This document shows, in pieces, positions 32,805-35,940 of a stretch of DNA of 38,002 bases. Origin of the DNA: Elusimicrobiota bacterium (GTDB lineage: Bacteria > Elusimicrobiota > Elusimicrobia > 2-02-FULL-39-32). The stretch lies in contig JAKFYJ010000080.1 in assembly GCA_021730935.1 (NCBI GenBank), positions 1-38,002 of the forward strand. Reading direction: 5' to 3'. The notes under the pieces were generated by a model. It was not told the DNA's origin and searched no databases. It worked only from the letters and a program-made list of their open reading frames with translations. The position numbers and the translations under genes were made by a program. Position 1 is the first letter of the stretch. The number at the start of each line of letters is the position of its first letter.

Positions 32805-32833
32805 TTGCGCGCGGTTTCGATTTATCCTATTCT
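32805..32833 (+). promoter_or_regulatory. Possible promoter of the FAD oxidoreductase gene
   Basis: TTGCGC (32805-32810) and TATTCT (32828-32833) are separated by 17 bases. Both are four-of-six matches. The -10 box ends seven bases before the ATG at 32841, so transcription would begin at or next to the start codon. It is divergent from the cheY-like promoter in a 135-base intergenic region. Confidence 0.4.
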
Positions 32834-32840
32834 CTTCCCC

Positions 32841-34148
32841 ATGGAAAAAGCGGATTTAGTCATCTCGGGCGGCGGGATTTTAGGCACGGCTCTGGCCTAT
32901 TGGATTTCTTCTTTGTATGAAGGCAAAATTGTTCTCGTCGAGATGGCAGAGGATGTGGCGCGCCACACGAGCGGGCGGAACACGGGCGTGATTCACAGGC
33001 CTTTTTATCTGCATCCGGAAAAACGCAGGACCTTTGCCCGGTGCGCCAACTTGTCTTATCACCTCTGGAAAGAATATGCGTCCGCCGAAAATCTCCCGTG
33101 GAAAGAGATTGGGACCATTGAGGTGGCCACGAACGATCATCAGGTCGAGCACATCAAAAAATATATGCAGTGGGCGGTCCAAAATGGCATGGACGCGAGT
33201 GAAGTGGAGCTTTTGAGCGGAGAACAGGTGAAAAAGCTAGAGCCGCATGTGGATTGCCTGGGCGCGATCTTTGCCAAGACGGACACCTCGGTCAATTATC
33301 AGATTTTTACGGAATCGCTCAAAAAACGGGCAGTCTCACAGGGCGCGCAGTTCAAGTTTGGGTTTAAAGTTCAGGATGTGGCGTCAAAAAATGGGGCTCT
33401 GGTCATACGCTCCGTCGATGGACAGGAGATTGAAACCTCGTTCTTTATCAATTGTTCCGGCGGCAACGCCATTGATGTCGCGCACATGATGAATGTCGGG
33501 AAAGAATACACAGATCTTCATTTCCGCGGAGAATATTGGGAAGTTTCCCAGGCGAAATCGGGGCTGGTGAGCCGCAACATTTATACGGTTCCAAAGCACC
33601 CGGACATCCCGTTTTTGGATCCCCACTGGATCGTGCGGGCGGATGGCAGGCGGGAAATAGGGCCGAACGCTGTTTTAATCGCCGGAAGCCAGACTTATGA
33701 AGGTTTTGCCAACGGATTGGGCGAATTTCTATGCAAGGTTTTTGAAAGGCCTTTGGGCAATAAAGCGCGGCTTTTCACGAACGCGGATTTTCTGAAACTG
33801 GCGTCCGAAGAGTGGGTCAGTTCCATCTCCAAGAAAGCCATGCTCGCACGCGTCCAAAAATTTATTCCGGAACTTAAAGCCGAAGATCTGGTGAAACGCG
33901 GCACCGCCGGCATCCGCAGTTCCGTGATTGACCCGAAAGGCAATTTCATCAAAGAAGCCATCGAACTCGAAGGCGAAAAATCTTTCCACATCTTGAATTA
34001 CAATTCCCCCGGCGCCACAGGTTCCCCCGCCTATACCGCGCTGTTGGTCAGCAAGCTCGAAAAACTTGGCAAATTCACCCATCTCAAAAAGCGTCCCATT
34101 CCCGTGAAAGGCATTTGGGATTTCAACAAAGTTATTAACTCGCTTTAA
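32841..34148 (+). CDS. FAD-dependent oxidoreductase, L-2-hydroxyglutarate oxidase/dehydrogenase-like
   Basis: A 435-residue DAO-family flavoprotein. The FAD-binding motif GGGILGTALAYWIS lies near the N-terminus, followed by TSGRNTGVIHRPFY, a central FINCSGGNA, and FRGEYWEVS, the substrate-domain segment typical of L-2-hydroxyglutarate oxidases (LhgO/L2HGDH). Such enzymes oxidise L-2-hydroxyglutarate to 2-oxoglutarate. The ATG at 32841 is preferred over one at 32805 because the FAD motif starts a few residues later and the possible promoter lies between them. It is transcribed alone and converges with the glycosyltransferase operon. Its stop codon lies inside a palindromic element. Substrate is inferred from family resemblance. 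Confidence 0.82.
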   Translation: MEKADLVISGGGILGTALAYWISSLYEGKIVLVEMAEDVARHTSGRNTGVIHRPFYLHPEKRRTFARCANLSYHLWKEYASAENLPWKEIGTIEVATNDHQVEHIKKYMQWAVQNGMDASEVELLSGEQVKKLEPHVDCLGAIFAKTDTSVNYQIFTESLKKRAVSQGAQFKFGFKVQDVASKNGALVIRSVDGQEIETSFFINCSGGNAIDVAHMMNVGKEYTDLHFRGEYWEVSQAKSGLVSRNIYTVPKHPDIPFLDPHWIVRADGRREIGPNAVLIAGSQTYEGFANGLGEFLCKVFERPLGNKARLFTNADFLKLASEEWVSSISKKAMLARVQKFIPELKAEDLVKRGTAGIRSSVIDPKGNFIKEAIELEGEKSFHILNYNSPGATGSPAYTALLVSKLEKLGKFTHLKKRPIPVKGIWDFNKVINSL

Positions 34149-34281
34149 ATAAATATTGTCCCCTGTTTTTACTGAGACTGTATCGAGCGAAAGACTGGCA
34201 TACGCTTTCGCGAGATCCAAGCGAGCCCCGCACTCGGGCGAGCGTGTCGAAGAAAAAACAGGGGACAATATTTATTTAAAG
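34143..34281. repeat. 139-base palindromic (MITE/REP-like) element with 28-base perfect inverted repeats
   Basis: The arms at 34143-34170 and 34254-34281 are perfect inverted repeats; the outer part reads CTTTAAATAAATATTGTCCC on the + strand, followed by CTGTTTTT. The 83-base interior holds further pairing, for example GCGAAAG at about 34187 with CTTTCGC at about 34205. There is no open reading frame. The stop codons of the flanking convergent genes both lie inside the arms, in the same CTTTAA context. It resembles a small non-autonomous mobile element or an intergenic palindrome that could also act as a bidirectional terminator. No transposase gene is present. Confidence 0.8.
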
Positions 34282-35940
34282 TTTATAAATTGAAATTTTC
34301 CCTGAATGGGCGATTCGGAAATGGGGGCTGAACTGCTCCAGCATGACCGCATTTTTCGGCAGGTTCCTGTAAAAATCTGAAATTCCTGGCAGGTTCTTCA
34401 AAATCGCGTCCTTTTCCGTGTCCTCGGAAACGGCGACATACTGAATCCCCATCTTTTTGAGGGCCGCAATGTCTCCGCTCACTTCCGCCAGATCCTGAAG
34501 TTTCTGCACTTCCTCCACTTGTTTCGGCAGAGACGCAATCTCCCTGAAATCGCGCTTGAGCGTAAAAATCTGATATCCGTGCCCAGGCCCGGGATGCGCT
34601 TTCAACTGCAAAGCGAAATATTCTTTCTTATAGTGGTTCAGCTCCACCGCCTTCTTGTGGAATCTTTCGATCTCTTCATAACTCATCAAAAGCGGCGGCG
34701 CCATCACTTTGAGATCGATCAAAAACGCGCTTCCTTCGGGAATGTTTTTGTCAATCCATTCCTTCGCTTCCGTCCGCGTGTCCGGCACCGTGAAGGAATA
34801 TGCCATGGCGCTCCCTTCATAGGCGTTCCATCCCAAAACGGCGGCAAAAATAAAAATTGGAATCGCTTTCCCCCATTTTTCTCCGGCGATGAGAAGACCG
34901 TGAACCCCGAGAAGGATGAAAAGCGGGAAAATCTGGATTAAATAGCCGCCGGCAGGGTTATGGTATCCGCCCACAATCCATAAATATGCGGCGAGCGGCG
35001 CCAGGATAAGAAAATATTTTCTCTCCCATTTTATAAAACACATCCCAAACCCAGCGATGCAGGCGGCTCCAGCTATTTTGGGCGCCGGCACATCTCCCAG
35101 GGTCAAAAAGCGGTTCAACATAATCATGGCGTTGTGAAAATAATTCGGTTTTTCCCCCGTGAGAGACGAATAGATGCTCATGTTTGATCCGAACTCGGTC
35201 CAGAATTCCTTGAAAGACAGGAGCGCATAAGGCGAGCCGATAAAAAAGAATGTCGGGATGAGCGCGAGAGCGATCGCGAGATTCCATAAATTTTCTTTGG
35301 GATTTTTACGCAAAAGGTGGGCCGCGATGAGGGCGATGCCATAGGGCGCGGCGTGATATCGGGTTGAGACGGCGAGGCCCAAAAATATTCCGGCCAGGAC
35401 ATAATATTTTTTTCCGCCTTCCTCGGCGATGTCGATACAAAACCAGAAAAAAATCAGGAGCAGGACCGTCATGCCCATATACCCCTTGATGATATGCGAG
35501 AGATAAATATAATGCGGCAGTCCCGCCACGATGGCCGCTGACACGAGGCCCGCCGTCTCGGAAAACATGCGTTTGCCGATTTTATACACCATAAACACGA
35601 TCAAGACTCCGCAGACCGCTTCGCTCAGGCGGCCCAACAAATAAAACATCGTGGGGTCTTTGACGAAATGAAGAGCGAAATCGGCGGAGGTCGGGAACCA
35701 TCCAACGACATATCCTACGGCAAAATAAATTCCATAGACGAAAAGCATAAAATACAAATAAAGCGTGGGATATTCGAAAAAATGCGGGTTCAAGTCGCCC
35801 GAACCCATGCGGAGGGCATATTTGACGATTTTATATTCTTCGGATTGATATTCGTGCGGCAGGCCCCACTGAATTCCCCAGAGGCGGACGGCGGCCGCCA
35901 GCAAAAGGATCAGAAGGACGAACTTATTTTTTGAGGCCAA
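34276..35940 (-). CDS. GT39-like membrane glycosyltransferase (GT-C fold)
   Basis: A 554-residue protein with an N-terminal hydrophobic segment and about ten further membrane helices over residues 1-380, then a soluble periplasmic C-terminal domain. The opening AVRLWGIQWGLPHEYQSEEYKIVKYALRM, then GDLNPHFFEYPTLYLY, matches bacterial GT39 (dolichyl-phosphate-mannose-type) proteins. The usual acidic pair in this first loop (HPDE) reads YQSEE here, so the aspartate is replaced while the glutamate is kept. Enzymes of this group transfer a sugar from a polyprenyl-phosphate carrier to protein or glycan outside the inner membrane. It overlaps the upstream GT2 gene by 17 bases. Its stop codon lies in the palindromic element. 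Confidence 0.8.
   Translation of the reverse strand: MASKNKFVLLILLLAAAVRLWGIQWGLPHEYQSEEYKIVKYALRMGSGDLNPHFFEYPTLYLYFMLFVYGIYFAVGYVVGWFPTSADFALHFVKDPTMFYLLGRLSEAVCGVLIVFMVYKIGKRMFSETAGLVSAAIVAGLPHYIYLSHIIKGYMGMTVLLLIFFWFCIDIAEEGGKKYYVLAGIFLGLAVSTRYHAAPYGIALIAAHLLRKNPKENLWNLAIALALIPTFFFIGSPYALLSFKEFWTEFGSNMSIYSSLTGEKPNYFHNAMIMLNRFLTLGDVPAPKIAGAACIAGFGMCFIKWERKYFLILAPLAAYLWIVGGYHNPAGGYLIQIFPLFILLGVHGLLIAGEKWGKAIPIFIFAAVLGWNAYEGSAMAYSFTVPDTRTEAKEWIDKNIPEGSAFLIDLKVMAPPLLMSYEEIERFHKKAVELNHYKKEYFALQLKAHPGPGHGYQIFTLKRDFREIASLPKQVEEVQKLQDLAEVSGDIAALKKMGIQYVAVSEDTEKDAILKNLPGISDFYRNLPKNAVMLEQFSPHFRIAHSGKISIYKL

Follow-up and report, generated by a model that had tools for sequence, protein, structure and literature searches.

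A dispersed structured core within site-specific palindromes of an Elusimicrobiota genome

A palindrome between two convergent genes

The window, namely, the whole stretch of DNA analyzed in the present study (38,002 nt), is contig C23 of a 2.7-Mb Elusimicrobiota genome (G000) in 96 contigs. Genes for an FAD-dependent oxidoreductase and a PMT_2 membrane glycosyltransferase converge in it on a palindrome of 139 nt (Table 1). The matches of the FAD protein include several named Elusimicrobia metagenome-assembled genomes, with a top identity of 68-69%. The arms of the palindrome are exactly complementary over 28 nt, with a spacer of 83 nt; when the inner part is included, the pairing extends over 36 nt at 92%. 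In comparisons with 200 dinucleotide shuffles, the single-strand fold had a z of -10.1 as DNA and -10.5 as RNA. No other strong inverted repeat was present in the 38-kb window, in which the other listed pair was 72% complementary. CTTTAA ends one ORF in each arm, at 34143-34148 on the + strand and 34281-34276 on the - strand. The initial annotation, made from the sequence alone, had described a perfect 28-nt inverted repeat around a structured 83-nt core, with the stops of both convergent genes in the two arms, and the exact complementarity, the z of approximately -10, and the positions of the stops bear out this description.

Table 1. Features of the palindrome and the two flanking genes (positions in the window)
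Feature	Position	Strand	Basis or remark
Whole element, locus-specific palindrome with structured core	34143..34281	.	Arms and fold
5' arm, locus-specific	34143..34170	+	With CTTTAA, stop of the FAD oxidoreductase ORF
Inner end of 5' arm, TTTTT	34166-34170		Feature common to most copies
3' arm, exact inverted copy of 5' arm	34254..34281	+	Holds the PMT_2 stop (- strand)
Core, 71 nt	34177..34247	+	Sole part repeated elsewhere in the genome; BLAST
Hairpin P2 (GCGAAAG...CTTTCGC)	34187..34211	+	Sequence; variable hairpin
Hairpin P3, AGCGAGCC-loop-GGCGAGCG	34220..34244	+	G-C pairs on both sides of tandem G.A (by eye); sequence conserved across the class
FAD-dependent oxidoreductase ORF (PF01266)	32805..34148	+	Ends in 5' arm
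PMT_2 (PF13231) membrane glycosyltransferase ORF	34276..35940	-	Ends in 3' arm

Copies of the core and other palindromes in the same genome

A BLAST search of G000 with the element returned 10 places that share approximately query positions 35-105, at 88-100% identity over the matched parts, in addition to the reverse self-match and five matches of 14-18 nt. The possibility of a 139-nt repeat unit with further copies had been raised. The palindrome is real and the structured element is multi-copy; however, similarity is confined to the core, which is the genome-wide repeat. In each copy, one arm (28-48 nt) is the near-perfect complement of the other, with no resemblance to the arms of any other copy, and the arm motif of the window element occurs at this locus only, plus one place with one mismatch. 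Most copies flank the core with T5-7 and then a short paired stretch, such as NNGAAGA/TCTTCNN, in which variation is compensated. Within the core, copy L010 carries a compensatory change in P2 (GCAAAAG...CTTTTGC), and one base has been lost on each side of P3 in four copies (L005, L008, L009, and L010). The arms of L003 and L004 also hold stops.

It had been suggested that the element could be a MITE or REP-type unit mobilized in trans. Several near-identical copies too short for a transposase gene, as expected of MITEs, are present at the 10 core places. However, terminal inverted repeats common to all copies were not found in G000, in which the arms are unrelated, and the arm motif of the window is not a conserved 20-40-bp palindrome in many copies, as expected of REPs. 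An ordinary MITE or REP identity was rejected because the arms differ at every copy. Among the 60 genomes (own, genus, family, and class) searched with this core, a match at E<=0.001 was obtained in the own genome only. A pattern scan of a genome contig collection, which may omit the own genome, returned no match. A plasmid origin (no plasmid match), a phage origin (four 25-nt matches only, E 0.8), and a viral origin (six 16-mer matches, none of which extends) were also rejected.

In 824,977 bases of G000, 19 inverted repeats had a score of at least 14, against three in a block-shuffled control. The 19 comprised five copies of the window's core, one second-core element, and 13 others. Close palindromes (spacer <=20) numbered 36 at a score of at least 10 and only two at a score of at least 16; therefore, long vacant hairpins are rare. 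At the latter score, two vacant palindromes compare with six core-bearing ones. One of the two vacant palindromes, L069:16306-16361 (G000:C1:196306-196361), is coreless, with 28-nt arms, zero spacer, and a T-run centre like that of the element arms. A perfect 33-nt inverted repeat with a spacer of 211 nt was also noted at L069:4188-4464.

These counts bear on the possibility that the core inserts into the loops of existing hairpins, mostly bidirectional terminators, which we consider quite unlikely. The coreless palindrome with the same T-run centre is consistent with this mode of insertion, as are the outer arms of L002-L004, L006, L007, and L010, which by eye resemble terminator stems with an A-run and a T-run, and an outer quasi-palindrome common to both sister species at g6 locus 3 (by eye). 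However, long vacant hairpins are almost absent, the arms overlap coding ends, one second-core element lies inside the pabB ORF, and element-free family members have no hairpin at the site. The rarity of vacant long palindromes and the arms at comF and murA, which run into coding sequence, also disfavor the earlier suggestion of insertion into terminator hairpins.

The second-core elements (L039/L056 in the pabB ORF and L058/L106 between comF and gapA) have the same architecture without the P3 motif. The second core lies in frame inside the pabB ORF, and a search with model R1 did not find these elements. A c-di-GMP-I-UAU riboswitch was detected above its Rfam gathering score at L056:551-629 (-). 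We also noted fragments that resemble tRNA-Ala, all of them close to a genuine tRNA-Ala gene, at L061, L062 (G000:C18), L063 (G000:C4), and L057 (G006:C79); in these fragments, GTCGCCGCGGCGAC replaces the anticodon arm, and the second core has the same palindrome.

The P3 module across the class

Other Elusimicrobiota genomes also contain multiple copies of related modules. The pattern AGCGAGCCN{2,12}GGCGAGCG was present at 85 places in 35 of the 235 class genomes, against 12 places for the reversed-pattern control. Identical loops recurred in G000 (9 places, two loop types), G014 (13), G183 (7), G190 (6), and G005 (4/5). An enclosing repeat with a score of at least 12 was found at 26 of 42 class-wide places, some of these repeats being long-range G014 or chance pairs. 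In a joint reading of 24 chosen copies, the outer stem covaried and P3 was conserved, with double changes in 14 of 20 predicted pairs; removal of G000, L115, and L121 left 17 copies, in which 16 of 19 pairs had double changes. When a model built without G000 sequences was run against 825 kb, it recovered the five known copies (E 0.0004-0.005), and no further hit fell below E 4; this test is partly circular because most class-wide members were picked by the P3 pattern, the only exceptions being the g6 copies (BLAST with the G007 core). No Rfam family covered the element at its gathering score, and P3 is a class-wide folded motif absent from Rfam.

Most copies in G014 are conventional MITEs, with the P3 motif inside an element that has common terminal repeats of approximately 13 nt around GGACTTTTGCAAA. 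Terminal inverted repeats common to copies were found in this genome only. The G014 MITE family comprises L194-L206, mostly 169-191 bp, and L194 has one possible target site duplication.

On the core-sense strand, the arms of the first 18 elements (excluding L120 and the contig-end copies L116/L118) contained 645 standard pairs, 20 G:T, 2 A:C, and 11 other mismatches (p 0.00012 for 20:2). A second set contained 12 G:T and 11 A:C (9:1 without G014); 10 of these 11 A:C are G014 pairs from an alignment that runs across an unpaired loop. The G:T bias was not upheld in the second set as a whole; it hints at, but does not firmly establish, a role for the folded sense strand.

Gene ends and arms in related genomes

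In the family member G006, the same convergent gene pair has neither element nor palindrome, and 3 nt separate the stops. The C-termini of G006 and the window (...KVSEFVS* vs ...KVINSL* and ...IAVYSLD* vs ...ISIYKL*) match to within a few residues. With an FAD protein only 57% identical, G006 is too distant to serve as the clean empty site of a very close relative. Insertion had been suspected of replacing the 3' ends of both genes; judged against this element-free comparator, at most the last few codons were affected. It is plausible that arm copying gave one of these two window genes the stop of the other.

Between comF and gapA, G001, G002, G004, and G005 have short spacers only, whereas G000, G007, and G008 have elements. 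The comF-side arm of G000 holds the codons ARNQ*, and six of the eight genomes read carry LT[LV]AR at the same end. Since the comF-side arm contains the gene end, the gapA-side arm is read as the inverted copy. An arm at murA (named by eye from the C-terminus) also contains the gene end. Arms often take in the end of a gene, and the best reading of the opposite arm is then an inverted copy. In G006 (L108), a GC-rich inverted repeat was noted after comF by eye only; it is below the threshold of the finder, and R1 did not find it.

G007 and G008 are sister species of another genus of the family and have their own core sequence; their elements are not copies of the window's core. When the G007 core served as the BLAST query, three places were identified in G007 and six in G008. 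Seven of these nine are complete, all seven with long site-specific arms, and two are at contig ends. Contigs C8 (L116) and C9 (L118) of G008 end inside an element, which indicates that assemblies break at these palindromes. At a fourth site, left uncounted, the core subtypes of G007 and G008 differ, and the element is cut by the ends of two G008 contigs, which may carry its two halves. A clean empty site was not found between G007 and G008, and the L120 site is rearranged in G007.

Three orthologous pairs were alignable: comF-gapA, G007:C25:66254 / G008:C8:107803, and murA. Their flanks were identical at 2200 of 2387 positions (difference 7.8%). The arms differed between the species at 9 of 94 sites, approximately the flank rate, and all nine differences were present on both arms; this count leaves aside one inner site of pair 1, which differs through reversal of the whole unit, and the outermost bases of pair 2, where the change is confined to one arm. 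Two of the nine are transversions, which wobble pairs cannot bridge. The core is inverted in pairs 1 and 2 (78/81 and 62/63 identical only when reversed) and not in pair 3. The G007 copy of the third pair has lost 24 nt of its core, and its outer arms are still perfect and co-changed; this is more in keeping with copying than with selection for the complete fold.

Alternatively, selection may keep the long stem paired because the element acts as a non-coding RNA or a processing hairpin. Such a function would be consistent with the conservation of the P3 sequence across the class, the covariation of the stem, and the excess of G:T over A:C in the core-sense strand. However, the arms co-change at approximately the rate of the flanks, with transversions among the changes, and stay perfect beside a partly deleted core; moreover, the contexts of the copies are mixed and include the interior of an ORF. 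We regard this explanation as very unlikely.

Template switching between the arms of inverted repeats homogenizes the arms and inverts the spacer, according to the accessible part of a previous study (PMC8604942). Both signatures are present in G007/G008: homogenized arms in three pairs (9/9 differences) and spacer inversion in two of the three. On balance, we lean toward a small non-autonomous mobile structured element, the palindrome of which was extended and homogenized by template switching. The spreading unit would be the core of approximately 71 nt (P2 and P3), perhaps with the short inner stem T5-7NNGAAGAC/GTCTTCNNA5-7. We propose that the core hairpin in DNA makes the polymerase switch templates, such that one arm and its outer flank are copied to the other side. 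Such switching may lengthen and perfect the palindrome unique to each site, may sometimes place the last codons and stop of a gene on the far side, and may sometimes flip the core. A mobile structured core accounts for the repeat; template switching accounts for the private, near-perfect arms, for their continued co-evolution in the sister species, and for the flipping of the core. The positions of the gene ends suggest that the same process may have lengthened the arms into them. However, template switching alone does not predict the lean toward G:T over A:C in the arm mismatches, and it would need the arms of all ten copies to have been extended before the cores diverged.

In inverted target duplication, the insertion reaction itself would copy 20-45 nt of one flank in reverse on the other side, the arms being perfect from the start and then decaying. 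This mechanism is in line with the long, near-perfect arms of all ten copies, the cores of which have hardly diverged, and with the distal arm at comF and murA, which resembles a copy of the gene end. However, the arms of the sister species still co-change long after insertion, for which decay alone is insufficient, and no excess of direct repeats was found between arms and opposite flanks (mean 6.65 vs 6.44 in swapped controls). We consider inverted target duplication unlikely. We raise only tentatively the possibility of an element class without fixed ends that spreads the folded core alone and builds a new site-specific palindrome from the sequence of the target each time, either during insertion itself or through fold-back copying shortly afterwards, generating inverted copies of gene ends.

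This repeat family has a conserved centre and new terminal repeats at each site, a design that ordinary repeat annotation would overlook or describe wrongly. The sister genomes may serve as a natural system to measure template switching at long bacterial palindromes, including its effects on gene ends. Rickettsia palindromic elements are also palindromic insertions, some in frame in ORFs; unlike the present elements, their ends are conserved between copies. As described in the accessible text of PMC2649163, Correia/NEMIS (CREE) MITEs are likewise small, dispersed, non-coding, and located near genes, with a long hairpin; however, the terminal arms in G000 are not common to copies. REP/REPIN sequences with TnpA-REP are short multi-copy palindromes and candidates for mobilization in trans, as in the available portions of PMC3733652, PMC3116915, and PMC8266576; in REPs, the 20-40 bp palindrome itself is the repeat, whereas here the centre is conserved and the palindrome is site-specific. 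The template-switched repeats in the accessible part of PMC8604942 are alike in arm homogenization and spacer inversion; however, they are short and in yeast coding DNA, in contrast to the repeated mobile core and 28-48-nt arms in G000. Small repeats with site-specific arms around a common core were not described in the accessible portions of the literature, mostly outside subscription journals; for Elusimicrobia and miniature inverted repeats, these portions contained only work on insertion sequences (PMC9208149).

Palindromes of other types were also noted. REP-like palindromes around GGGACAGCGCCC are present at L070:1829-1879 and L102:2800-2855 (G005), the latter overlapping the 3' end of the G005 FAD oxidoreductase gene. 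At L102:1330-1476 / L146:2830-2976 (G005), two palindromic hairpins (GTCATTCCCGCG..) lie within a 31-nt inverted repeat (AGAATGAAGGGGACGC..), which is a nested palindrome of another kind.
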